Assembly: GCA_019359235.1 (NCBI GenBank)
Contig: JAHHHT010000006.1
Coordinates: 1-64,000 of the forward strand
Direction of reading: 5' to 3'
Source of the DNA: Oscillatoria princeps RMCB-10
Lineage (GTDB): Bacteria; Cyanobacteriota; Cyanobacteriia; Cyanobacteriales; Oscillatoriaceae
DNA: 64,000 nt
A model generated the notes under the pieces. The model was not told the DNA's origin. It worked only from the letters and a program-made list of their open reading frames with translations, and searched no databases. The position numbers were made by a program, and so were the translations under genes. Below are positions 28,803 to 43,341 of this stretch, piece by piece. The stretch's first letter is position 1; every line of letters starts with the position of its first letter.

Positions 28803-29995
28803 TGGCTGAGTTCCTGATTTCGGTGGGGGGAGGGTGTTGCACAAAGGCAGGATGAACCCCACCCCCCAACCCCCTCCCCGCGTGCGGGGAGGGGGAGTAA
28901 GAGGGGGTTTGAGAGCAGTGAAAAAAGTTGAAATCATCCTTCTACTGTGCAACGCTTTTGTCTCAAGGATTAAGGTTTTTATTATCTCATCTGAGGGGGC
29001 TGGAGCCAACTGCCGGTGGTGCCGGTGTCTGGGCGGAGGGGGCGATCGCAAGGTTTGTAGTTGGGCTAAAGCCCAAAAGTTTGTAGTTGGGCTAAAGCCC
29101 AAAAGTTTGTAGTTGGGCTTCAGCCCAAACGTTTGTAGTTGGGCTTCAGCCCAAAAGTTTGTAGTTGGGCTTCAGCCCAAAAGTTTGTAGTTGGGCTTGA
29201 GCCCAAAAGTTTGTAGTTGGGCTTCAGCCCAAACGTTTGTAGTTGGGCTTCAGCCCAAAAGTTTGTAGTTGGGCTTCAGCCCAAACGTTTGTAGTTGGGC
29301 TTCAGCCCAAAAGTTTGTAGTTGGGCTTTAGCCCCACCGGCATTCAGCTCTTAGCCAGGTGATATCCTGTCCGCCGGCAGTCTCTGGTGGTTGGGGCGGG
29401 GGCGGGTTGATGGCCATCTTTCGCGCTCGCCACAGATACAGGACTTACGCAGCGACACTTAATGTAGTGTGGGGTGGGTTACGCTATCGCTAACCCACCC
29501 TACAGATAGAGGCGCAAGCGTAAGTCCTGAGATATATGGGGTGAACCCGCCCGTGCAAATATGGAAAATCGATGCCGGTGGATATCACAGGATTGTGCTG
29601 TGAGAGAGTGTTTGTGGAGAAAACGTGATGGGGCCAGAGACTGGGGGCGGCCACGGGGGGCCGCCCCTACAGGCTGTGTGCCATATATATGTGGGGGCGG
29701 GGCGCACCCGAAATGTTTGCTGCTAGTCGAGGATGTCTGTAAACCCGCCCCTACCCGCATTCATAACCCGGTTTTTTGCCCCTGTGCTGTTTTTTGATGG
29801 GAGCTACCGCCAATTGGCGGGGCGGAATTGCCGGTGGCGCTGGGGGATGCGCCGTCGAAAGCCGGCAGCCGGTGAGATGGGCGGTGGGGCAAGGGCACCG
29901 GCAATGGCCCACTGCGCCCAGGGGTGCCGTGCGAGGCAAGCCGGAAGTCTGAATCCCTTTTGGCTGGGGGGTTCGGGAAAATTTCAGCTAGCCTC
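28803..29995. other. 1.2-kb repeat-rich intergenic region
   Basis: No gene is seen. It contains a GGGGAGGGGG-type palindrome near 28870, the eleven-copy 26-bp array (29053-29338), a hairpin around TAGCGATAGCG near 29470-29500 and GC-rich dispersed repeats. It isolates the CRISPR-Cas locus from upstream genes. Confidence 0.6.
29053..29338. repeat. Eleven tandem 26-bp hairpin units
   Basis: Eleven head-to-tail units of 26 bp, each GTTTGTAGTTGGGC plus TTCAGCCCAAAA or a close variant. Each unit can fold as GGGC-TTCA-GCCC, and base changes in the loop (TAAA, TTCA, TTGA, TTTA) leave the stem intact. Single copies of the same unit occur at 25034-25126 and about 44270. Confidence 0.9.
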
Positions 29996-30024
29996 TTGAC
30001 AGTCTGGAATTTTTAGGTTATGGT
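29996..30024 (+). promoter_or_regulatory. Promoter P1 upstream of the cas operon
   Basis: A perfect TTGACA at 29996-30001, a 17-nt spacer, and TATGGT at 30019-30024 (4 of 6). Transcription would start near 30031, a few bases before the ATG of the 47-codon ORF and its guide-matching site. Confidence 0.6.
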
Positions 30025-30037
30025 CAATTTATATCGA

Positions 30038-30051
30038 ATGCTTCAAGGTGT
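30038..30051 (+). promoter_or_regulatory. Guide target site 1 (ATG PAM plus 11-nt match)
   Basis: ATG at 30038-30040 is followed by CTTCAAGGTGT, identical to the first 11 bases of the guide at 30250-30260. The site lies just past the predicted P1 start, where bound Cascade would block elongation. Confidence 0.6.
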
Positions 30052-30181
30052 TACACATGGGAGCAGACAGGGTGGAGCAAGGCTTTCCGCCGATTTTAAA
30101 GCCCTCCCTGTTGGCTGGAGCGCTCTGAGCGCAATCGCTCTGGGAAATCCCTGGGCTGAGCTTGACAGTATGATATTTTGA
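30038..30181 (+). CDS. Small ORF at the head of the cas operon, 47 codons (candidate DevI- or CreT-like)
   Basis: It starts MLQGVTHGSRQGG and ends LGNPWAELDSMIF, with stop at 30179-30181. The ORF sits exactly between promoters P1 and P2, and P1 would make it nearly leaderless; no Shine-Dalgarno sequence is visible. A moderately hydrophobic middle (ALPVGWSALSAIAL) is the only feature. Its first codons are the sequence that the upstream guide matches, directly after the ATG that doubles as PAM. By position it corresponds to devI, the small inhibitor gene at the start of the Myxococcus dev cas operon, or to creT in CreTA modules. No sequence homology was tested, and it may be non-coding leader. 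Confidence 0.4.
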   Translation: MLQGVTHGSRQGGARLSADFKALPVGWSALSAIALGNPWAELDSMIF

Positions 30182-30190
30182 GCGTAGACT
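30162..30190 (+). promoter_or_regulatory. Promoter P2 of the guide and cas operon
   Basis: A perfect TTGACA at 30162-30167, a 17-nt spacer and TAGACT at 30185-30190 (4 of 6). The predicted start near 30197 falls immediately before the first diverged repeat, so P2 would make guide and cas mRNA as one transcript. Confidence 0.6.
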
Positions 30191-30200
30191 TAATATCTAC

Positions 30201-30249
30201 CAACCTGTGATGCCTTAAGCCGTTTAGCAGAGCAAAAGGCGTTGAGAAC
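30201..30249 (+). repeat. Diverged CRISPR repeat psi-R1
   Basis: Bases 30201-30230 match 23 of 30 positions of the array repeat from ACACCT to its end, including TGATGCC and TTAGCA. A second match to the 3' half, AAGGCGTTGAGAAC (13 of 14), follows at 30236-30249. The two together look like one repeat with an insertion. GCCTT at 30212-30216 can pair with AAGGC at 30236-30240, restoring a Cas6-type stem before the handle. Confidence 0.7.
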
Positions 30250-30328
30250 CTTCAAGGTGTGTGGCTCAAACTAGGGCCAAGCTCGAAAGTTCGGAGCGGC
30301 AAGGTTCATTTATACCCTCGCTCGCTCG

Positions 30329-30362
30329 TCACCTCTGATGCCGTCAGGCGTTTAGCAAAGCA
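30329..30362 (+). repeat. Diverged CRISPR repeat psi-R2 in the cas6 leader
   Basis: It matches the array repeat at 25 of 30 positions, with the stem GCC-GTCA-GGC intact. A 5-nt insertion TAGCA follows GTT, after which AAGCAC restores the repeat end. psi-R1 has the same insertion, so the two share ancestry distinct from the array repeats. It lies 32 nt upstream of the cas6 start. Confidence 0.75.
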
Positions 30363-30393
30363 CTTAATTGTAAAATTCAGGAGGGTTACTCCT

Positions 30394-31038
30394 ATGTCTT
30401 TGTACGCCCAAGGTTCTATGCTTCAAGGTGTTATCGACGAGCCGTTTATTGAACTGAGTTACCCCGTCAGGGGGCGCTCACTTCCAGCGGATCATGGCTA
30501 TGCCTTATATGCCGCGATCGTTCACCTGCAGCCGGCGGTGCGTCAGGAGAGCGAGCTGAGTATTCTGACTGTCCCCGGCATTCCCGACAGAGAGGGCAAG
30601 ATTCTGCTGACAGAGCAATCGCACCTGCGAATTCGGGTGCCGGTTTCCAAAAGCCGGCTGGTTTACGCACTTGCAGGGAAAAAAATCCGGATTGGCAAAC
30701 ATGAGGTTCTCATTGGGATTCCGGAGGTTTCTCTGTTGCAACCGGCACCGGCTCTCAGGGCGCGAATTGTCACGCTGAAGGGACACACCGAGCCTGAGGA
30801 TTTTTTAGCGGCGGCTCAGCGCCAGCTAGATTCCTTAGAAATTACAGGCGACATTCAGATTCCTCTGAATCGCGATAAAGCGCCCAGCCGTAAGACGATC
30901 AAGATTAAATGTCACACCATCGTTGGCTTCACTATCGAAGTGACAGGTTTAAGTGACTCCGACTCCCTCACGTTGCAGCGAGAAGGATTGGGAGGGCGGC
31001 GTCATATGGGTTGTGGCGTGTTTGTGCATTCAAACTGA
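30394..31038 (+). CDS. cas6: CRISPR-associated endoribonuclease Cas6 (MYXAN type, Cmx6)
   Basis: A 214-residue protein. ATG 30394 is chosen because GGAGGG sits at a good distance upstream (30380-30385); the frame is open further 5' but passes through psi-R2. It matches the short Cmx6 form: FIELSYPVRGRSLPADHGYALYAA at the N-terminus, RIRVPVSKSRL in the middle, and the C-terminal Gly-rich loop (EGLGGRRHMGCGVF) typical of Cas6. His in the ADHGY segment may be catalytic. It should cut the repeat 3' of the GCC-GUAA-GGC stem to leave the handle. It is the first cas gene, 42 bp before orf93. Confidence 0.85.
   Translation: MSLYAQGSMLQGVIDEPFIELSYPVRGRSLPADHGYALYAAIVHLQPAVRQESELSILTVPGIPDREGKILLTEQSHLRIRVPVSKSRLVYALAGKKIRIGKHEVLIGIPEVSLLQPAPALRARIVTLKGHTEPEDFLAAAQRQLDSLEITGDIQIPLNRDKAPSRKTIKIKCHTIVGFTIEVTGLSDSDSLTLQREGLGGRRHMGCGVFVHSN
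30418..30431 (+). promoter_or_regulatory. Guide target site 2 inside cas6
   Basis: ATG at 30418-30420 (codon 9 of cas6) followed by CTTCAAGGTGT, again 11 bases identical to the guide start. The identity with site 1 covers 16 bases and stops sharply on both sides. It lies downstream of the guide locus, so a Cascade block here would spare the guide transcript while cutting cas expression. Confidence 0.6.
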
Positions 31039-31512: not shown

Positions 31513-33915
31513 ATGAATTTTAAACGCTTACTCGCCAAATCCTTGCCACAGCGAGAATCCAAGACCGCGCCGGCAAGTAAGGCGGCTAGATACGCTGGTC
31601 ACTTGGCGTTAGTGAATCAGTCTGCCGAGGTCTTGCTCCAGCAGTTAGGGCCAACTATTATCCAGCAATTAGGATTAGAGAGCATTGACCCGGATTATTT
31701 TGCCAATACGGTGAGGTTGGGGGCTTATCTCCACGACTGGGGGAAAGCCAATCAGCACTTTCAGGAGATGGTCTGCCTGAAGTCTCTTGACTCCAAATCT
31801 GCTGATGAAAAAATTCGCAATTACCGGAAGAAGCTGCAAAAGTCCTGGCAAGATCACGACGCTAGGCAAATGCTGCGCCACGAGGTCTTGAGCGGTATCT
31901 TGGCTTTGCGAGTCCCTAGCTTTAGACACTGGTTAGAGCAGTGTGCGGATGCAGATTTTATGGTGGCCGTTTGGGCGGCAATGGGACATCACCTGAAACT
32001 GGGGGAAGAAGTTGCTGAAATCCCCGATGGCACTGGGAGCGAGCTGAAAATTTACACCGATCACGAGGATTTTAGAGCTGTCTTGAAAATGGGCAAGCGG
32101 TTGGGGTTGCCGGCTCCATTGCCCGAAAGGCCCCAGCAAAAGTGGTCAAAGTCTCAACTCCAGAAAGAGCTTACAGCCTTGCGGGATGAATTTGTCGAAA
32201 TTGAAAATCAGATTATAAAGGAGGAGGACTGGAAGCGCCAGAAGTTTATTGCCGCAGTTAAAGCAACGGTTATCGCAGCTGACCTGGCCGGCTCAGCCAT
32301 ACCTGTTGCTGGGTACAGTCTCAAGGACTGGATGCAACAAGTCCTGGGATTGGTGCTATCTGATGAGGATATTCAACAGCTGTTGGATGAGCGTCTCAAA
32401 GACAAGCCCCTACGCCCATTTCAGGAACAAATTGCCGGCACACCCTACCGAGTCACATTGGTTAAAGCTGGATGCGGCACCGGCAAGACTGTCGGCGCTT
32501 ACGCCTGGGCGAAAAAATGGGCAGCCGGTCGTAAGTTATTTTTCGGATATCCGACAACCGGCACCGCGTCTCAGGGCTATATGGACTACGCCGCTGAGAC
32601 TGAAATCGAGACGGCTTTAATGCACTCCCGCGCTGAGATTGACTTAGAGGAAATTTTGTTTTCTGGTGACTCGGAAGATTCTGAAGGCATCGATGCGCGA
32701 CTGGCGGCATTTAGGGCGTGGCAAGCCAAGCTGATTGTCTGCACGGTAGACTCGGTTTTGGGATTGATTCAAAACAATCGCAAGCCTTTGTACTCATGGC
32801 CGGCTATCTGTCAGTCCGCCTTTGTGTTTGATGAGGTTCACGCCTATGACGAGTCTTTATTTGGGGCGCTTCTCTGCTTTCTCAAAACCTTTGGCGGTGC
32901 GCCAATCTTATTGATGTCCGCTAGTTTCACTCAGGGACAGCTGGACGCTATCGGGCAAGTTATGGATGAGCTGGGAGAGCCGGTTGAGATAATCGAAGGG
33001 CCACAAAATCTGGAGATTCTCCCCCGCTATCAAATCCAGTCTATTTCTCAGGTGTCTCATCCAGAGGAATTGCCGGAAATTTTGCCGGCTGTCTTGGAGG
33101 CTTTGCGGGAGAAACAAAAAGTCCTGTGGGTGACTAACTCGGTAAAGAGTTGCATTCAACTCTACCGGCTGGCGGGGACAAAGATTGCTGAAAACTTGTC
33201 CGGGGTGCCGGTGAACCGGCTTATCTATCACAGCCGGTATCGCTATAAAGACCGGCTGCAAAAGCACAAAGCGGTGATAGAGGCGTTTGATCAGGAGCGG
33301 GATGGGCCGGTTTTAGCGATTACAACGCAAGTGTGTGAGATGTCTCTCGACTTGAGTGCGGATTTGCTGGTATCGGCAATGGCACCGGCGGCTGCCTTAA
33401 TTCAGCGGTTGGGAAGACTCAACCGGCGCGTGATAGAAGATGAGCTGGGTAATGTTCGCCTTGCTTCTGGCCGGATTTGCTCGGCTATCATTTATCCTTG
33501 GAATAATGACAAGCCTTATAAGCCGGCAGAACTCTTGACAGGCAAACAGTTCGTTGATAAACTGGCAGGAGGGGCTATTTCACAGCTGGATTTATCTGAA
33601 GTGGCGGCTGAACTGGCGTCCAACACACCCACTCCTGTAAAATCTAACTGGCTGGAAGGGCATTGGTGCACTTATCCTGGTTTTCTCAGGGAAGCCGGTT
33701 ACACTATTACTGTACTGCTAGAGGAGGATTTGGCTGATATTCGGAAAGCTGCTAATCAGCGCAAAGATAAATCTTTTATGAAGGAGGCGCAGCGGTGGTC
33801 AGTGCCTGTCCGGATTGTACCCGGATTTCAGGAATGGCGGCGAATTGGCTTTTACCCTGTTGCCCCACGGGAGAGAGTTTGTTATACTGAGGAGACGGGG
33901 GCTGAGGAACTGTGA
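31513..33915 (+). CDS. cas3: CRISPR-associated helicase/nuclease Cas3 (MYXAN type)
   Basis: An 800-residue fusion of an HD nuclease and an SF2 helicase, recruited by Cascade to unwind and degrade target DNA. In the HD domain, His30 (YAGHLALV) and His74-Asp75 in AYLHDWGKA are visible, with later HHs in MGHHLK. In the helicase, Walker A is KAGCGTGKT (about 318-326), the DEVH box is at 440-443, motif III is MSASFT, and motif VI is near IQRLGRLNRR. All key residues are present, so it should be active. It overlaps cas8 by 4 bp. Confidence 0.93.
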   Translation: MNFKRLLAKSLPQRESKTAPASKAARYAGHLALVNQSAEVLLQQLGPTIIQQLGLESIDPDYFANTVRLGAYLHDWGKANQHFQEMVCLKSLDSKSADEKIRNYRKKLQKSWQDHDARQMLRHEVLSGILALRVPSFRHWLEQCADADFMVAVWAAMGHHLKLGEEVAEIPDGTGSELKIYTDHEDFRAVLKMGKRLGLPAPLPERPQQKWSKSQLQKELTALRDEFVEIENQIIKEEDWKRQKFIAAVKATVIAADLAGSAIPVAGYSLKDWMQQVLGLVLSDEDIQQLLDERLKDKPLRPFQEQIAGTPYRVTLVKAGCGTGKTVGAYAWAKKWAAGRKLFFGYPTTGTASQGYMDYAAETEIETALMHSRAEIDLEEILFSGDSEDSEGIDARLAAFRAWQAKLIVCTVDSVLGLIQNNRKPLYSWPAICQSAFVFDEVHAYDESLFGALLCFLKTFGGAPILLMSASFTQGQLDAIGQVMDELGEPVEIIEGPQNLEILPRYQIQSISQVSHPEELPEILPAVLEALREKQKVLWVTNSVKSCIQLYRLAGTKIAENLSGVPVNRLIYHSRYRYKDRLQKHKAVIEAFDQERDGPVLAITTQVCEMSLDLSADLLVSAMAPAAALIQRLGRLNRRVIEDELGNVRLASGRICSAIIYPWNNDKPYKPAELLTGKQFVDKLAGGAISQLDLSEVAAELASNTPTPVKSNWLEGHWCTYPGFLREAGYTITVLLEEDLADIRKAANQRKDKSFMKEAQRWSVPVRIVPGFQEWRRIGFYPVAPRERVCYTEETGAEEL

Positions 33916-35495
33916 AATTAGAGTTTGATTTGGGGAATCCCAGTTTTACCTTACTGCATGGCGCTGGTTTGGCTGGGTTATATATGACTCTCCAACAGCT
34001 AAGGAAAGCAATTCCTGCTGAAAAGTGCCCAGGAAGGCTGGACTGGCAACTTTCCCGCCGGCGGGTGACGCTGAACTGGCAAGGAAATGATTTAGAGGTG
34101 CTGGATTGGCTGCTGAAGTCGTCCTTTCAGTTAGACGACGGGATTATCTCTCTGAAAGGTTTGGACTCAAAAACAATGGACATTCAACCCCGGCTGATTG
34201 CTCACCAGGGAATCCTTGGCACTTTCTTGCAGCACAACAGCACCCACAAGTCAACCGGCACAGTTTCCAAGTCTTTTGTGCTTGAGGAAGATAAACCGGA
34301 GATTGTCGTGACTTACAAGTCCCTGACAAGTTATGTTTATCAAGACTTTGCTAGCGACCTTTGCGACAAAAATGGGCGGCTGCTGGACAAGCCAATCAGT
34401 GTTGCCGGCTGGTTAAATCCCGGTGCGGTGGTGCGCCACATTGCTTTTCCTGCGGACACAAGTTTTGAGGAACCGCCAGAGCAAGCGCTGCTGCTGCTCT
34501 TTGCGCCGGTGGCGTGCTATTATTATATATTGAGGTCGAAGTTGCGGGACAAACGGGCGCAGTACGCGCTGGTGGTTCCTGAAGTCACCGATTTAGAGGT
34601 GTATGCCAGCTACCGCCAGCAGCCCAAGTTGAGAAGTGCCGGTTACAAGGATTTCTTTGCTTCTGGGTTGGGAGATGCCGGTTTGAGGTTTTTGACTTAC
34701 CAAACTACAGTCAAGACGGCTGAAACTTACAATATTCAACGCTGTCAGGTTTTGACTTTGGGCACGGTGGCGTGGTCAACTCAACAAAAAACCCGCACGG
34801 ATTTGTATGTGGTAGAAGCCAAGGCTGAGATTTGCGAGAAATATCAAGTCTGCCGTGACAATTTTTCTGATGGCGTAGTTGCCGGTAAAGACGGCGGATT
34901 TGTAGCTAGTAGCTTTGCCCGAGAGCTGATTGCCGACAATCTGGCTAAGTCTAAACCGTGGTATTCGGGTTTGTCTGATAAGGTGAATAGCAATGAATTG
35001 TTCGAGCGATTAACCTACGAAAAAAAAGGACTTTGCGCGATGATACAGAAAGCAGAAACAGAAACAGAAAAGCTTGAGAAGCTGTTTGTTGAGGCTTTTC
35101 ATGAAGCTATATATTTTCTTCGGGGGAAAATAAACACGCAAGTAAAAAAGAAAGGAGGAAGCCCTGAATTCCAAAAGGAGTTGCGCAATAGCCTGTTTAA
35201 CAGAGAGGCAGTAAGAATTCGGTCGGAATTAGTGCGAGCTAGAAGTGCTGATAAATTCAGAGAATTTATTGTGCGCTTTTTCAGCAGAGCTGGGCGAGTT
35301 CCTAAGTTGAAGGAAAACTGGACAGAATTGATGCAAATGACTATGGGACGTGGGGATTGGAAATTAACAAGAGATTTGGCTCTCTTGGCACTGGCTAGCT
35401 ACAACGGGAAGGGCGTGAAAGATTCAGGAGAAGATGAGAATCAGGTAGAGCAGGAGGTAGAGGAAGAAGATGAGGTGTTTGATATCGGACTGTAA
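33912..35495 (+). CDS. cas8: Cascade large subunit Cas8 (Cmx8 / DevT type)
   Basis: A 527-residue protein with a GTG start overlapping the cas3 stop (translational coupling). The N-terminus FTLLHGAGLAGLYMTLQQL and the middle segment WLNPGAVVRHIAF, with the following QALLLLFAPVACYYYIL, match the Cmx8/DevT family of MYXAN systems. A very acidic C-terminus ends the protein. It should recognise the PAM and bind the 5' handle in Cascade. In Myxococcus the homologue DevT is needed for autoregulation of the dev operon, which is relevant to the upstream guide. Confidence 0.85.
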   Translation: MKLEFDLGNPSFTLLHGAGLAGLYMTLQQLRKAIPAEKCPGRLDWQLSRRRVTLNWQGNDLEVLDWLLKSSFQLDDGIISLKGLDSKTMDIQPRLIAHQGILGTFLQHNSTHKSTGTVSKSFVLEEDKPEIVVTYKSLTSYVYQDFASDLCDKNGRLLDKPISVAGWLNPGAVVRHIAFPADTSFEEPPEQALLLLFAPVACYYYILRSKLRDKRAQYALVVPEVTDLEVYASYRQQPKLRSAGYKDFFASGLGDAGLRFLTYQTTVKTAETYNIQRCQVLTLGTVAWSTQQKTRTDLYVVEAKAEICEKYQVCRDNFSDGVVAGKDGGFVASSFARELIADNLAKSKPWYSGLSDKVNSNELFERLTYEKKGLCAMIQKAETETEKLEKLFVEAFHEAIYFLRGKINTQVKKKGGSPEFQKELRNSLFNREAVRIRSELVRARSADKFREFIVRFFSRAGRVPKLKENWTELMQMTMGRGDWKLTRDLALLALASYNGKGVKDSGEDENQVEQEVEEEDEVFDIGL

Positions 35496-35561
35496 AGGTT
35501 TTATTCTCAAATGCCGGCGGGCATTAAAGAATCCCACTATATCTATATAGGAGGTTTAAAA

Positions 35562-36476
35562 GTGACGTTCCATCTTTTCGGCAACATTCTCACTAGCTAC
35601 GGTACGGCTGCGAACAATCGCGGAGAAAATGAAGGGAATATTACCACCCTGCAGAAGTTACTCTGGAAGGGAGAGGTGCACACAACGGTTTCAGCGGAGG
35701 CGATTCGGTGGGCGCTGCGCTACTACTGGCAAACTGCCGGAGAAGGCTATAAAGTGAACCGGCACTGGGATGATGACAAGAATGATAATGTCTGGCAAAA
35801 TGCTAATTTCGATGATGAGACATACATCGATGATGATGTTCTCGGCTTTATGCGGGCGGAGGGTGCTAAAATCGAAGCCTCTGACGAACCCAAACAAAAA
35901 GGCAAAAAGCCTCCCAAGGGAACAACGACAGCAAGGCGCGGGGTGTTGGAGGTGACTCGTGCGGTTTCCACCACTCCCTATGCTGGGGATATGACGTTTA
36001 ATTCTGCCAGCGGGCAAAAGGGAAGGACTTCTCTTTACGGAACCGAAGTTCACGCGACGCGCTATCAGTACGGCTTTGCGCTGACACCCGACCGGCTGAA
36101 GGATAAATCCCGCACAATTTCCGTTTTGGATGGGTTGATTTCTCTGGGGGAAGTGGCGGGGAATCACTCGCGTTTCTTGTACGATTTCTCGCCAGACAGT
36201 CTGGTGCTGCGGTGGACGCACGATTTTTCTCCCCGCTTCCTTTATTGCTTCGCAGAAGATGAGGAGGGCGAGATATCAGCACCCGATTTGCTGCGGCGAG
36301 TCAAGGAGGGCGATATTGAGCCGGCGGAGTTGTGGGTTGCGGGGGCGATTTCGTATTCAGATGAGATAGATGCGCTGGAAGAAATGGGTGTCAATGTCTT
36401 CACCGGCATTAAAGCAGCTGTAGAACATTTGAAGCAAACAATCGCCGCCGATTTAGGTTTTCCACAGCGGAGGTGA
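35562..36476 (+). CDS. cas7: Cascade backbone Cas7 (DevR family)
   Basis: A 304-residue protein from GTG 35562, which follows GGAGG at 35550-35554; the frame is open to 35511 but lacks a ribosome site there. The N-terminus FHLFGNILTSYGTAANNRGENEGN is the conserved RRM-like start of DevR/Cas7, and SLYGTEVHATRYQYGFAL plus GEVAGNHSRFLYDFSPDSLVLRW complete the signature. Multiple copies coat the crRNA. It overlaps cas5 by 4 bp. Confidence 0.9.
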   Translation: MTFHLFGNILTSYGTAANNRGENEGNITTLQKLLWKGEVHTTVSAEAIRWALRYYWQTAGEGYKVNRHWDDDKNDNVWQNANFDDETYIDDDVLGFMRAEGAKIEASDEPKQKGKKPPKGTTTARRGVLEVTRAVSTTPYAGDMTFNSASGQKGRTSLYGTEVHATRYQYGFALTPDRLKDKSRTISVLDGLISLGEVAGNHSRFLYDFSPDSLVLRWTHDFSPRFLYCFAEDEEGEISAPDLLRRVKEGDIEPAELWVAGAISYSDEIDALEEMGVNVFTGIKAAVEHLKQTIAADLGFPQRR

Positions 36477-37114
36477 GCGAAATGATGCCTGTTGCTTTGC
36501 AAGTAGAAGTGCCGGTTGCCTGTTTCCGCCAATCCCGCGCACGGGAATATGCGGAAACCTATCCCGTACCGCCGCCTTCAACGGTTTATGGAATGTTGAT
36601 CTCGTCGGTTGGGGAAACGGATAGATATAAACACTGCGGGGTTCGGCTGGCAATTGCCCTCCTCTCTCATCCGGAAAAATCAACTATTATCCGGACGTTT
36701 CGCCGGTTCAAGAAAAAGGATATCCACGATCCCACTAATGCCAGACCTGACTATCAAGAACTGCTGACAGATATTCGATTTGCTGTCTGGGTGGATGCCG
36801 GTGGGGACAGGGCAAAACCGGCTCTCCCACAACGCTTGCAGCAGGCTTTTTCTAACCCCGCTTCTGTGAGCCGGTTTGGGGGGTTGTGCTTGGGAGAAAG
36901 CCGCGATTTAGTTAATGAGGTTACGCTGCTATCTGAAAATTATCGCGGCGAATCCTTACAGTGGTTAGTGCGGGATGAAAACGGCTTGCTGACGCTTCCT
37001 TACTGGGTGGATCATGTCGGAGCTCAGGGGACTCGCTGGCACAGATTTTCCCTGCTGTCAGTTGATGAATGGCAGCCCCCTGAGCTATCATGGACTGTAA
37101 TTGAGCCGGCTTAA
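36473..37114 (+). CDS. cas5: Cascade subunit Cas5 (DevS family)
   Basis: A 213-residue protein starting at GTG 36473 within the cas7 stop (ATG at 36482 is an alternative). VEVPVACFRQSRAREYAETYPVPPPSTVYGMLISSVGE is the Cas5 N-terminal fold, with the conserved PPPSTVYG turn. FGGLCLGESRDLVNEV and LPYWVDHVG follow. It should bind the crRNA handle beside Cas8. It ends the effector block; a 146-bp gap with a hairpin separates it from the next gene. Confidence 0.9.
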   Translation: MSEMMPVALQVEVPVACFRQSRAREYAETYPVPPPSTVYGMLISSVGETDRYKHCGVRLAIALLSHPEKSTIIRTFRRFKKKDIHDPTNARPDYQELLTDIRFAVWVDAGGDRAKPALPQRLQQAFSNPASVSRFGGLCLGESRDLVNEVTLLSENYRGESLQWLVRDENGLLTLPYWVDHVGAQGTRWHRFSLLSVDEWQPPELSWTVIEPA

Positions 37115-37818: not shown

Positions 37819-37870
37819 TTTTTTAGTGCTAAAAATGGAACAGGCGAGACGCCTGTCCTACAATTCCTCG

Positions 37871-37891
37871 GATGCCGTAAGGCGTTGAAAC
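37871..37891 (+). repeat. Orphan CRISPR-repeat hairpin upstream of cas4-cas1
   Basis: The 18 bases GATGCCGTAAGGCGTTGA are identical to the array repeat 3' half and are followed by AAC, giving a handle GUUGAAAC of the classic type I form. The 5' half of the repeat is not conserved. It lies 24 nt before the cas4-cas1 ATG, in what would be its mRNA leader, so Cas6 could cut there. Confidence 0.8.
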
Positions 37892-37915
37892 ATTATACCT
37901 TTTCTGGCATCTTTT

Positions 37916-39580
37916 ATGCAAACACTAGACTTTCTCGAAAAAACCGCACAAGAAACAATTCGCGTCTCCGCACTCCACGCTATTGCCTACTGCCCTCGGC
38001 TTTTCTACCTGGAAGAAGTGGAGGAACTCCACACCCAGGATGCGGCAGTTTTTGCCGGACGCCGGCTGCACGCTGAGCTGGAAAAACAGGAAGATGAGGA
38101 GTGGGAAGAACTCTTCCTCGAAAGTGAGGAGTTGGGATTGCGCGGTCGGGTTGACGCTCTCCGCACGCGCGATGGGGAAACAATTCCCTACGAACACAAA
38201 CGAGGTCGCTGCTTCCGGGATGAAAACAATCAACCCCAAGCTTGGGAAAGCGATCGGCTGCAAGTTCTCGCCTACTGTTGCTTGATTGAATACGCTCTCA
38301 AAATCCGGGTTAAAGAAGGCCGAATCCGCTACCACGCTGATAATATTTTAGTTCATGTGCCGCTGGATGATGCGGGGCGGGAAGCGGTTCGAGAAGCGGT
38401 AAAACAAGCAAAAGCCCTGCGAGAATCGGCACACCGGCCCCCTGTAATTGACAATGAGCGCCTGTGCGCCCGCTGCTCTCTCGCGCCGGTTTGTCTGCCT
38501 GAAGAAGCGCGACTGGCGCACAACCGCGAGTGGCAGCCCATTCGTTTATTTCCGGAAGATGATGACCGGCAAATTCTTCACATTTTGGAACCGGGAACGG
38601 CTGTGGGGCGCACGGGCGAGCAAATCAAAATCTCCCGCCGCAACCAGCCGGTGGAAACCATTCCCGCCCGACAGGTGGGGCAAATTGTGCTGCACAGTTT
38701 CGCCCAGATTTCTACGCAAGCGCTGCACTTCTGTGCCGGTGAGGGGATTGGGGTGCATTTTATTTCCGGCGGCGGGCGATATCTGGGCAGCTTTGACAGC
38801 CGGCAGGGTTCTATTCACCGGCGCATCCGCCAGTATGCCGCGCTGAGCAATCCTGAGATTTGCTTGGATTTGGCGCGGAAGCTGGTGACTTGTCGCGGTG
38901 AGAGCCAGCGCAAGTTTTTGATGCGTGGGCAGCGGGGGGTGAAGAAGGTGCCGGTGGCGCTGAAGGCGGCAATTTCTCAGATGAAAGCGGTTCTGAAACA
39001 AGTTGCAAAAGCTGATTCGCTGTCATCTCTGTTGGGGGTGGAAGGCAATCTGGCTGCTCTGTATTTTGGGGCGCTGCCGTGTCTGATTTCTGAGGCGGTT
39101 GCGCCTGAATTGCGCTTTGCCGGTCGCAATCGCCGCCCGCCTAAAGACCGGTTCAATTGTCTGTTGAGTTTTGGCTACGCTTTGCTGCTCAAGGATGTGA
39201 TGAATGCGATCCTGACGGTTGGGTTAGAGCCGGCACTGGGATTTTACCACCAGCCGCGCACTCAGGCACCGCCGCTGGGGCTGGATTTGCTGGAAATTTT
39301 CCGTGTTCCGCTGGTGGATATGCCGGTGATGGCATCTGTTAACCGGGGGCAGTGGGATGTTCTGGCGGATTTTGACGTGCGGGGAGAGCAGGTTTGGCTG
39401 AAGGATGCGGGAAAAGAAAAGTTGATTGATATTTACGAGAAGCGCAAGGAGGAAAGTTGGAAGCACCCAGCTACCGGCTATTCTTTGACGTACCGGCGTC
39501 TGTTTGAGTTGGAGGTGCGGCTGCTGGAAAAAGAGTGGAGTGGGGAAGGGGGTTTGTTCGGTCAGTTAGTGTTGCGGTGA
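37916..39580 (+). CDS. cas4-cas1: Cas4-Cas1 fusion, CRISPR adaptation integrase
   Basis: A 554-residue fusion typical of MYXAN and I-G systems. The Cas4 part (1-200) has iron-sulphur Cys26, Cys184, Cys187 and Cys193, and RecB-nuclease residues Asp80, Glu93 and Lys95 with Gln116/Tyr120 in LQVLAY. The Cas1 part (about 225-554) has catalytic Glu376 (LLGVEGNLAALYF), His445 (LGFYHQPR) and Asp457 (LDLLEIFR). With Cas2 it selects PAM-bearing fragments and inserts them as spacers. No Shine-Dalgarno is evident; the leader holds the orphan repeat hairpin. Confidence 0.95.
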   Translation: MQTLDFLEKTAQETIRVSALHAIAYCPRLFYLEEVEELHTQDAAVFAGRRLHAELEKQEDEEWEELFLESEELGLRGRVDALRTRDGETIPYEHKRGRCFRDENNQPQAWESDRLQVLAYCCLIEYALKIRVKEGRIRYHADNILVHVPLDDAGREAVREAVKQAKALRESAHRPPVIDNERLCARCSLAPVCLPEEARLAHNREWQPIRLFPEDDDRQILHILEPGTAVGRTGEQIKISRRNQPVETIPARQVGQIVLHSFAQISTQALHFCAGEGIGVHFISGGGRYLGSFDSRQGSIHRRIRQYAALSNPEICLDLARKLVTCRGESQRKFLMRGQRGVKKVPVALKAAISQMKAVLKQVAKADSLSSLLGVEGNLAALYFGALPCLISEAVAPELRFAGRNRRPPKDRFNCLLSFGYALLLKDVMNAILTVGLEPALGFYHQPRTQAPPLGLDLLEIFRVPLVDMPVMASVNRGQWDVLADFDVRGEQVWLKDAGKEKLIDIYEKRKEESWKHPATGYSLTYRRLFELEVRLLEKEWSGEGGLFGQLVLR

Positions 39581-39589
39581 GGTGGTATT

Positions 39590-39883
39590 GTGGCTGAAGC
39601 GAAAAACTGGTATTTAGTGGCTTATGATATTCGGTGCCCGAAGCGCTGGCAGAAGGCTTACAAGCTGCTGCAAGGATATGGGGAGCGCCTGCAATATTCG
39701 ATTTTCCGCTGCTGGCTGAGCCAGCGGGATCGGGAGAAGCTGCGCTGGGAGTTGGAGAGGGTTTTGGCGGCGGAGGACAGTCTGCTGCTGATCCGTTTGC
39801 CTAACCAGTGTGTGGAGGGGTTGCACGCTTATAACCGTGCTGGGGCGTGGCCGGTGGCCCAAGAGGCGTACCGGATTGTCTGA
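39590..39883 (+). CDS. cas2: CRISPR-associated protein Cas2
   Basis: A 97-residue protein with a GTG start 9 bp after cas4-cas1. It has the ferredoxin-like Cas2 fold: WYLVAYDIRCPKRWQKAYKLLQGYGERLQYSIFRCWL, with Asp in AYDI and the family RLQYSIFRC segment, then LLLIRLPNQC. It bridges two Cas1 dimers in the adaptation complex. The CRISPR leader follows. Confidence 0.95.
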   Translation: MAEAKNWYLVAYDIRCPKRWQKAYKLLQGYGERLQYSIFRCWLSQRDREKLRWELERVLAAEDSLLLIRLPNQCVEGLHAYNRAGAWPVAQEAYRIV

Positions 39884-40142: not shown

Positions 40143-43100
40143 CTGGACACACCTTTGATGCCGTAAGGCGTTGAGCACGCCAACGTTTCTGGCAGAAGAG
40201 AGGCACTGGGATAGTCCCTGGACACACCTTTGATGCCGTAAGGCGTTGAGCACATACTCTCCTATGGAAGTCTCTATCGAGCTTTCTATTCTGGACACAC
40301 CTTTGATGCCGTAAGGCGTTGAGCACTGCCCCAATATCCATGACGAGGCCAGCCGTGGATCTGGACACACCTTTGATGCCGTAAGGCGTTGAGCACCAAG
40401 GTGCCGATGTGACAACTGCAGCTGAGCCTTTCTGGACACACCTTTGATGCCGTAAGGCGTTGAGCACATCTGCCGCAAATCAGGAAGCACTTCGCTTACT
40501 TATGTCTGGACACACCTTTGATGCCGTAAGGCGTTGAGCACCATTGAAGCGGCATTAGTTTTTCTCGCAAAATCTAGCTGGACACACCTTTGATGCCGTA
40601 AGGCGTTGAGCACCTGGGAATTGCTGGAAGACAACTCGCGAGACTAGGACTGGACACACCTTTGATGCCGTAAGGCGTTGAGCACACAGGTGGGGGGATG
40701 GGGACCAGAGATTTCAAGAACTGGACACACCTTTGATGCCGTAAGGCGTTGAGCACAACCACGCTAACACACCCCCAGTCGGAGCCAAAACACCTGGACA
40801 CACCTTTGATGCCGTAAGGCGTTGAGCACGGTTCTAAGCCGTACTTTTGCGTCTATTTCTTGGATACTGGACACACCTTTGATGCCGTAAGGCGTTGAGC
40901 ACCTTTCGAGCTCGCTTGACTCCTAAGCCTTGGCGCGCCTGGACACACCTTTGATGCCGTAAGGCGTTGAGCACGATTTGGAAGAAGCGGGAGTAGAGAC
41001 GATTGTCACCTGGACACACCTTTGATGCCGTAAGGCGTTGAGCACAAGCTTTGCAAAGGGCAGGGGATGACGCCCCCAATCTGGACACACCTTTGATGCC
41101 GTAAGGCGTTGAGCACAGATCAAGCTGTGGGTTGAGGCGCTCGTCGCACCAGCTGGACACACCTTTGATGCCGTAAGGCGTTGAGCACAGGCGATTGCAA
41201 AGTATCGGCTCTTGGGTAAGTCTGGACACACCTTTGATGCCGTAAGGCGTTGAGCACTGTACGCGACTTGCGAGTGATGAACCTACTCAAAGTCTGGACA
41301 CACCTTTGATGCCGTAAGGCGTTGAGCACCTAAAGGAGTCTCTCACAGAGAGGCATTAGAGCACTCTGGACACACCTTTGATGCCGTAAGGCGTTGAGCA
41401 CTCGTCAGGAAGCTCCTCTAGCCTCTTTCCCAGGACGCCTGGACACACCTTTGATGCCGTAAGGCGTTGAGCACATCGACCGGCGCGACGTAGGAGATTT
41501 TGTTGGGACTCTGGACACACCTTTGATGCCGTAAGGCGTTGAGCACATATCCGACTCCTCCCCAGAGGAAGTGTTTAATCTTGCTGGACACACCTTTGAT
41601 GCCGTAAGGCGTTGAGCACTCACCACGGTGCCCTACCTCCAGGGCACCGACTTCCCTGGACACACCTTTGATGCCGTAAGGCGTTGAGCACTGTCACCAT
41701 CCCGAAATAGCAATCATGAATAAAGCTACTGGACACACCTTTGATGCCGTAAGGCGTTGAGCACGGTTTTAATATATTTGGCCTATTCCCTTCCGAATGG
41801 ACTGGACACACCTTTGATGCCGTAAGGCGTTGAGCACTTAGAAAGAGTACTGCCGCGATCCGCTGAAGATGCTACTGGACACACCTTTGATGCCGTAAGG
41901 CGTTGAGCACATTTGTTATCGCCGAAAAGAGGTGGACGCATTAAACTGGACACACCTTTGATGCCGTAAGGCGTTGAGCACAGTCCCCTTGTTGGTATGG
42001 GCTCGTAGCGCTAGAGGCTGGACACACCTTTGATGCCGTAAGGCGTTGAGCACAACGATATTTTTGGCCCAATTGTCCCCTCCCGCGCCTGGACACACCT
42101 TTGATGCCGTAAGGCGTTGAGCACGAAACCTATAGGTTTCCGATATTTGGAGATAGGCTGCTGGACACACCTTTGATGCCGTAAGGCGTTGAGCACTTCT
42201 GTCAGCAATCAAGAAAGGACAGCTCTTGCTGCCTGGACACACCTTTGATGCCGTAAGGCGTTGAGCACATTTTAGTGTGGTTGCCTGCAGCGTCTCTGTT
42301 TTTCCTGGACACACCTTTGATGCCGTAAGGCGTTGAGCACGCCGTCAATACCACCTATCTCGCTGCCGGTGCAACCCTGGACACACCTTTGATGCCGTAA
42401 GGCGTTGAGCACCATTAGCGTCCCCTTCCCATTCAGAGTGCTGGAACTGGACACACCTTTGATGCCGTAAGGCGTTGAGCACCATTAGCGTCCCCTTCCC
42501 ATTCAGAGTGCTGGAACTGGACACACCTTTGATGCCGTAAGGCGTTGAGCACTATTTAGAGGATCTGGAGTGGGCGAAATCGAGCGCCTGGACACACCTT
42601 TGATGCCGTAAGGCGTTGAGCACCTCTAGACGCCGCTCAAGCGCAGTTAGGGGGCAGATCCCTGGACACACCTTTGATGCCGTAAGGCGTTGAGCACGAC
42701 ACTATTAGCAAAAAGTGGGAGGCGGCCAAAGCCTGGACACACCTTTGATGCCGTAAGGCGTTGAGCACCAACTCAGCGCACTGAAGAAACGGCTCGCCCT
42801 AGAGGCTGGACACACCTTTGATGCCGTAAGGCGTTGAGCACATTGTTGTAGTTGGGTTCCCTGAGGTTCTGCCACGCCTGGACACACCTTTGATGCCGTA
42901 AGGCGTTGAGCACTTATTAGGCAAATTCATAATCGCTCTGTCCGGGAACTGGACACACCTTTGATGCCGTAAGGCGTTGAGCACGGCAGGCGCTGGCGTG
43001 AAGGTCAAAGGCTCAACCCGACTGGACACACCTTTGATGCCGTAAGGCGTTGAGCACATCGCCCTCGCAACAGTGTTCGCCTTGTCTTCCCGCTGGACAC

Positions 43101-43341
43101 ACCTTTGATGCCGTAAGGCGTTGAGCACGGAGAGGAGCGGGACGCCGGCTGGGAAGAAGAAGCCTGGACACACCTTTGATGCCGTAAGGCGTTGAGCACT
43201 CTTGTTATTCCCAAGAACTTTCAGGGCTTTGCTGCTGGACATACCTTTGATGCCGTAAGGCGTTGAGCACGAGTCTGGGAAGAGTCGGGTACAGACGAGT
43301 TATCCCTGTCCACACCTTTGATGCCGTAAGGCGTTGAGCAC
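40143..43341 (+). CRISPR. CRISPR array, 45 repeats of 36 bp, 44 spacers
   Basis: By hand count there are 45 repeats beginning CTGGACACACCTTTGATGCC and ending GTAAGGCGTTGAGCAC; spacers are about 34-39 bp. The hairpin GCC-GTAA-GGC and handle GTTGAGCAC place crRNA on the + strand. All repeats are identical except the last two: 43235-43270 has ACATACC and 43306-43341 begins CTGTCCACACC. Those two mark the leader-distal end. One spacer is present twice in neighbouring units (42413-42446 and 42483-42516). Confidence 0.98.

Follow-up and report, generated by a model that had tools for sequence, protein, structure and literature searches.

A complete type I-MYXAN operon is encoded in the window, the 64,000-nucleotide stretch of DNA analysed here, with the genes in the order cas6, a 93-amino-acid frame, cas3, cas8, cas7, cas5, a cas4-cas1 fusion and cas2, followed by the CRISPR array (Table 1). 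The effector operon contains cas3 (31513-33915), and the CAST criterion, an operon without cas3, is therefore not met. A small hairpin (AGGAG GGTTA CTCCT, 30379-30393) directly 5' of the cas6 start codon holds the Shine-Dalgarno sequence of that gene. Further upstream, 5' of the operon, 26-nt units of the GGGCTTCAGCCCAAACGTTTGTAGTT type are repeated in tandem at 29024-29387. In Oscillatoria sp. PCC 10802 (L158), cas4-cas1 and cas2 are 98% identical to those of the window, whereas cas7 is just 29% and cas3 31% identical and cas8 is without a match. These differences indicate that the effector module was swapped in L158 while the adaptation module was retained.

Table 1. Positions of the operon genes, leader elements and other repeat-derived elements in the window.
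Feature	Position	Strand	Remarks
Promoter P1 (TTGACA-17-TATGGT)	29996-30024	+	10/12 consensus; -10 box 13 nt 5' of the site 1 PAM
Target site 1, start of P1 transcript	30038-30051	+	PAM ATG 30038-30040; seed CTTCAAGGTGT 30041-30051
Promoter P2 of guide RNA	30162-30190	+	TTGACA 30162-30167, 17 nt, TAGACT 30185-30190
psi-R1, degenerate repeat with expanded loop	30195-30249	+	Retained 5' handle TTGAGAAC 30242-30249
Predicted Cas6-processed CreR RNA, 109 nt	30242-30350	+	Inference, based on how repeats are processed (8-nt 5' tag); without RNA data
Linear guide part of CreR, 44 nt	30250-30293	+	Seed 30250-30260
Conserved stem-loop of CreR RNA (GAGCGGCAAGGTTCATTTATACCCTCGCTCGCTC)	30294-30327	+	Model match in window 37.9 bits
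psi-R2, degenerate repeat with degenerate handle	30323-30358	+	Retained hairpin ACCTCTGATGCCGTCAGGCG 30331-30350
cas6	30394-31038	+	TIGR02807, type I-MYXAN Cas6/Cmx6
Target site 2	30418-30431	+	Seed 30421-30431; PAM ATG 30418-30420 is Met codon 9 in the cas6 frame
cas3	31513-33915	+	
cas8 (Cas8a1/Csx13, MYXAN)	33912-35495	+	
Weak solo repeat, cas8-cas7 gap	35504-35531	+	Also in L033, L034, L164, L181, L182, L192
cas7	35563-36476	+	GTG 35563 start inferred
cas5	36473-37114	+	
Solo degenerate repeat (37865-37892) and inverted half-copy (37898-37911), directly 5' of cas4-cas1	37865-37911	+	
cas4-cas1 fusion	37916-39580	+	
cas2	39590-39883	+	
Main CRISPR array, 45 repeats (CTGGACACACCTTTGATGCCGTAAGGCGTTGAGCAC)	40143-43341	+	Spacers 33-39 nt (mostly 35-37)

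The leader upstream of cas6 was described in the initial annotation as a TTGACA-17-TAGACT promoter followed by two diverged CRISPR repeats, psi-R1 and psi-R2, that frame a spacer-like stretch. Both claims held and their coordinates were confirmed. It was also claimed that the 11 bases after the psi-R1 handle recur at two ATG-preceded sites, that the guide itself is flanked by AAC and that the match ends at nt 11, all of which proved correct to the base. The 11-mer CTTCAAGGTGT is present in only three copies in the window, at 30250-30260 in the guide and at 30041-30051 and 30421-30431 in the two sites, and contiguous pairing of guide and site is limited to nt 1-11. Across the 8.49-Mb genome, the target sites are the only two places that hold ATGCTTCANGGTGT, and the control gave 0 copies. 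The likeness of sites 1 and 2 to each other extends beyond the end of the guide match, as they share 16 nt (ATGCTTCAAGGTGTTA).

Two details were refined relative to the initial annotation. psi-R1, described there as a diverged repeat, is not a simple one; its loop is expanded, and it is composed of a repeat-like unit (30195-30230) followed by a second copy of the repeat 3' end, AAGGCGTTGAGAAC (30236-30249). These last 14 nt are identical to the array repeat at 13 of 14 positions, and the last 8 nt at 7 of 8. In psi-R2 the first 28 nt match the array repeat at 20 positions and the last 8 nt at 6, and the hairpin core (20 nt from ACCT) is intact relative to the family consensus. Thus, psi-R1 retains the handle and psi-R2 the hairpin, as in creA genes with two psi-repeats (PMC8501985). 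The processed RNA, originally placed at 30241-30328, is now predicted to span approximately 30242-30350, because the next Cas6 site is within psi-R2. In Rfam, psi-R1 and psi-R2 match CRISPR-DR33 only weakly, and the leader folded as a whole does not stand out from shuffled sequence (z -0.74).

The relation between guide and target was followed in a sample of 108 non-redundant cyanobacterial cas6/cmx6 loci. At each 12-mer resembling the repeat 3' end, the bases that follow were compared with ATG-preceded sites at nt 1-5 and 7-11. A perfect match within the same locus was found in 25 of the 72 type I-MYXAN loci in which cas3 is the next gene, whereas guide and site from different loci matched in 8 of 5,112 pairs, all 8 from sister loci. 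No match was present in any of the 27 loci with cas8 as the next gene, most of which are CAST-like, that is, of the transposon type without cas3. The sample was enlarged with 80 named loci, found with a cas4-cas1 alignment; a single-sequence search of the genome contigs with cas8 gave no matches. In the enlarged set, own-locus matches were found in 30 of 106 loci and cross-locus matches in 14 of 11,130 pairs, and 24 distinct guides were obtained, with L090 left out. The match in L090, which is counted among the 25 above, is a tandem duplication artefact and was dropped from the enlarged set by the overlap rule. Similarly rejected as artefacts were CCC-preceded matches 5' of the window operon, which stem from a tandem repeat, and self-overlap matches in L031/L032.

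The match is also specific in register and flank. It was found in 25 loci when the guide was read from the end of the handle, and in 0-1 loci at each shift of the guide window by 1-8 nt. When the PAM was left free, the match was preceded by ATG in 25 loci, AAC in 2, TAA in 2, CAA in 2 and CAG in 1. As a control, ordinary spacers of the main array were taken from 20 loci, 604 in all, and none matched. Together, the own-locus versus cross-locus counts, the register, the PAM and the array-spacer control indicate that guide and target change together. The initial annotation had named the absence of such co-variation in related MYXAN loci as a refutation of its reading; the test was run and passed. 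Under the handle criterion, a match at 9 of 10 positions was not reached by 39 of the 72 cas3 loci, nor by 61 of the 106 loci of the enlarged set. A majority of the cas3 loci are thus without a match, and therefore the device is either not universal or has diverged.

Two alternatives can be judged on these results. In the first, the three copies of CTTCAAGGTGT would be DNA operators to which a conventional transcription factor binds, and the placement of three identical 11-mers around two promoters is in its favour. However, the motif varies from locus to locus and yet tracks the bases after the local repeat handle, in that register only; in addition, ATG precedes the target and not the guide, and the 6th base is free. 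A protein operator would not follow the handle, and this reading is therefore very unlikely. In the second, the guide would act as an antisense small RNA on cas6 mRNA, as the location of site 2 within the start of the cas6 coding region could suggest. The guide and the sites share a strand, and therefore no pairing with the mRNA is possible, and opposite-strand matches at 10 of 10 positions number just two across all loci, one of them palindromic. Antisense action is all but ruled out.

The pairing pattern among the 24 distinct guides is that of a crRNA seed. Position 6, which was excluded from detection, matches in 17% of the guides and position 12 in 38%; positions 13-16 match in 54-79%, and matching is near background from position 18 onward. 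Mutational evidence from CreA has established that nt 1-5 and 7-11 are needed while 6 and 12 are dispensable (PMC8501985), and the agreement with these requirements identifies the MYXAN profile as the Cascade seed pattern. Since contiguous pairing in the window ends at nt 11, binding without cleavage would be expected there. The standard of comparison for the PAM was the set of published cyanobacterial I-B3 PAMs. Measurements in Synechocystis 6714 and in two I-B3 CASTs from cyanobacteria gave ATG/AYG as the PAM (PMC13199841), and the PAM of PmcCAST is ATG (PMC12719977). Phage matches to array spacers of the window and of L036 were sought as an independent source of the PAM, and none were found. 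As a separate observation, at the unpaired 6th position the target carries A for 19 of the 24 distinct guides and T for the other 5; G and C do not occur there.

The usual order in the loci is guide, site, cas6; the guide is flanked by two sites in the window and in L035/L036. The site follows a TTGACA-type promoter by 11-14 nt in L033, L034, L038, L081 and L107, the spacing also seen between P1 and site 1 of the window (13 nt), and no such promoter was evident in other loci. The PAM is in frame with cas6 in L031, L035, L036, L143, L144, L147, L152 and L154, and judging from the offsets it is probably the cas6 start codon itself in several of these. Some variation in the leader was also observed. 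In L031/L032, at -238 to -197 from cas6, psi-R1 ends as three tandem 15-nt copies of the handle (GTGTTGAGCAACAAA type), and only the guide after the last copy matches the target. In L035/L036, target site 1 sits within the loop expansion of psi-R1 and no promoter of its own was seen for the guide, which may thus come from a promoter under its own repression.

The positions of the sites bear on a third alternative, a CreTA-type module in which the guide RNA would be an antitoxin, P1 would drive a small toxic RNA or peptide (30031-30162) and repression of the cas genes would be secondary. In its favour, site 1 and P2 are about 110 nt apart, a short frame begins at the ATG of site 1, and CreA obeys identical psi-repeat and seed rules (PMC8501985). 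Against this, most relatives place the site between guide and cas6, several of them on the promoter that feeds cas6, without a separate unit (the short frame of the window was itself not compared). Furthermore, the second site in the window is inside cas6. A CreTA-type module is accordingly considered very unlikely.

The spacer of the guide RNA is itself unusual. It measures 73 nt in the window, as against 33-39 nt in the array, and about 66 nt in loci with the effector type of the window (range 59-76, many exactly 66); in several other MYXAN loci it is 19-44 nt. The long spacers consist of two parts. The linear part is 38 nt in 14 of 22 loci and 44 nt in the window, near the length of the array spacers, and the second part is a stem-loop of 31-35 nt that reaches or enters psi-R2. 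In the window, this stem-loop is formed by the end of the spacer together with the first bases of psi-R2. A co-varying stem was found across 21-22 loci. Arms from the same locus paired at -14.75 kcal/mol and swapped arms at -12.04 kcal/mol, a difference equalled in 0 of 20,000 permutations. In the stem alignment, 90.8% of cells were paired, which none of 500 shuffles equalled, and sliding the partner reduced pairing. The stem-loop has no match in Rfam. A model built from it, applied to 78 loci and 149 genomes, gave a single match per locus or genome, located 5' of cas6 and within this lineage. L175, which is absent from the rows of the model, was also matched, and its seed match is weak. A weak match in G101 adjoins a desaturase-like gene downstream and is regarded as false.

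A decayed mini-array or chance likeness, for which the degeneracy of the repeats could be cited, is all but excluded by the conserved stem-loop in the spacer, by the co-variation, register and PAM statistics and by the absence of any match among the 604 array spacers.

Repeat-derived elements are also found in other gaps of the operon, on the coding strand: a weak one 5' of cas7 and a clear one 5' of cas4-cas1. The weak solo repeat between cas8 and cas7 contains ATG 35511, and the true start of cas7 is inferred to be, in all likelihood, GTG 35563, which follows AGGAGG. In many cyanobacterial loci a solo repeat lies about 46-54 nt from the cas4-cas1 start codon and is followed by an inverted half-copy. 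The cas4-cas1 leaders (window 37865-37915; L158-L195) have the conserved layout solo degenerate repeat, short linker, inverted half-repeat (consensus ACCTTACAGACAT) and ATG. A hairpin of repeat and anti-repeat adjoining the start codon was obtained in all 5 leaders folded. The arms of a locus paired better with each other than with swapped arms, and 51 of 10,000 permutations were as good; shuffled arms gave -4.3 kcal/mol against -11.6 kcal/mol. RNAalifold, run on an automatic alignment of the cas4-cas1 leaders, predicted only the small repeat hairpin, and the repeat/anti-repeat hairpin therefore rests on the arm test. The hairpin could conceivably be a switch responsive to Cas6, crRNA or Cas1; switching is an inference for which there are no data.

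The stretch upstream of cas6 very likely encodes a CreR-type regulatory crRNA through which Cascade autorepresses a type I-MYXAN (I-B3-like) operon. The sequence itself shows the promoters and handles, the seed matches with their PAM and register, the co-variation among related loci and the conservation of the stem-loop; transcription, processing, loading, binding, repression and titration are inferred. In the proposed mechanism, P2, together with read-through from P1, would transcribe psi-R1, the guide, the stem-loop and psi-R2. Cas6 would cleave both degenerate repeats; the product, which would begin with the 8-nt handle and carry the psi-R2 hairpin at its 3' end, would be taken up by Cas8, Cas7 and Cas5 like a crRNA. 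The loaded complex would then bind the two ATG-flanked sites through the 11-nt seed. Occupancy of site 1, just past the P1 start, would block initiation or promoter escape, and occupancy of site 2, in cas6 codons 9-13, would block elongation into the operon from both promoters. The guide lies upstream of site 2 and would still be made from P2. Cas levels would thereby be kept low while free Cascade holds CreR, and would rise once array crRNAs or anti-CRISPRs divert Cascade. Of the mechanisms that can be inferred, the most economical combines an initiation block at P1 with a roadblock inside cas6 and leaves guide synthesis from P2 intact.

Several points weigh against this reading. The roadblock at site 2 is in a coding region, where repression is usually weaker than at a promoter; the 73-nt guide spacer is twice the normal length; the whole-leader fold is unremarkable; more than half of the cas3 loci lack a match under the handle criterion; and the evidence is sequence only, without RNA or expression data. 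The autorepressor interpretation put forward in the initial annotation is nevertheless supported by the PAM, the seed pairing and the co-variation, with repression and Cas6 processing remaining inferred. Two kinds of element had escaped the initial annotation: the conserved stem-loop within the guide RNA, and the solo repeats that lie in the leaders of cas7 and cas4-cas1.

CreRs have been reported for types I-B, I-E and V-A (PMC13131331, PMC12737573). Like these, the MYXAN element is a crRNA-like RNA beside cas genes, with a partial match to a cas promoter and predicted autorepression by Cascade. Those features of a CreR that can be judged from sequence are all present: it lies beside the cas operon between degenerate repeats, its PAM-flanked seed matches the cas promoter or operon start, the match is too short for interference, and guide and target co-vary between loci. 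Unlike the reported CreRs, there are two sites here, one at the promoter and one at the start of the cas6 coding region, and the PAM is often supplied by the start codon of cas6 or by a Met codon in its frame. A further difference is the guide of about 38 nt with a conserved stem-loop before psi-R2 in the lineage of the window, and the spacers of 19-44 nt elsewhere in MYXAN. The element likewise resembles CreA of CreTA (PMC8501985) in its psi-R1 5' handle, psi-R2 3' hairpin, seed at nt 1-5 and 7-11, PAM and free 6th and 12th nt. The CreA criteria of a psi-R1 with conserved last 8 nt and a psi-R2 with conserved first 22 nt are fulfilled. CreA targets a toxin gene, whereas the target inferred here is the cas operon; no known toxin was identified, and several relatives have the site on a promoter feeding cas6. 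Shmakov et al. 2023 (NAR 51:8150) reportedly describe regulatory elements derived from CRISPR, in which degenerate repeats close to cas genes match these genes in part, a further point of likeness. For Cas9, a natural single-guide RNA has been described (Workman et al., 2021, as cited in PMC10651486) that is similar in that the effector represses its own promoter through a short guide match. It differs in having a class 2 effector and in being derived from tracrRNA. The autorepressing kind of CreR is thus already known, and what appears new is the use of two sites, a PAM provided by an in-frame ATG, and the conservation of a stem-loop in the guide RNA, as judged without comparison to the primary CreR description or to the element lists of Shmakov et al. 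2023.

A bolder reading is that the RNA is a two-part regulator, in which a Cascade guide of canonical length (about 38 nt) is followed, ahead of the Cas6 hairpin, by the conserved 33-nt stem-loop with its co-varying stem. The stem-loop would give the complex a property absent from ordinary crRNA complexes, such as protection of the 3' end, a change in Cas6 retention, the exclusion of Cas3 or the ability to bind a sensor. Together with the repeat-derived hairpins in the cas7 and cas4-cas1 leaders, control by Cas6 or Cascade would then operate at both the DNA and mRNA levels. The functions are inferred, and taken jointly this reading could as readily prove wrong as right.

The 24 distinct guides constitute a natural co-variation experiment, from which cyanobacterial type I-MYXAN systems very probably redirect Cascade onto their own control. 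The seed rules (nt 1-5 and 7-11, a free 6th base and ATG) can be read out of evolution alone. The guide-RNA stem-loop and the cas4-cas1 repeat/anti-repeat hairpin are concrete RNA elements that can be tested, and guide/site pairs from named strains are ready for experiments, with clear pairs in Calothrix sp. PCC 7103 (L184), Calothrix sp. NIES-4105 (L194) and Laspinema palackyanum D2a (L177) as well as in the window. Such autorepression is to be expected by anyone who expresses or engineers these Cascades with their native leader.
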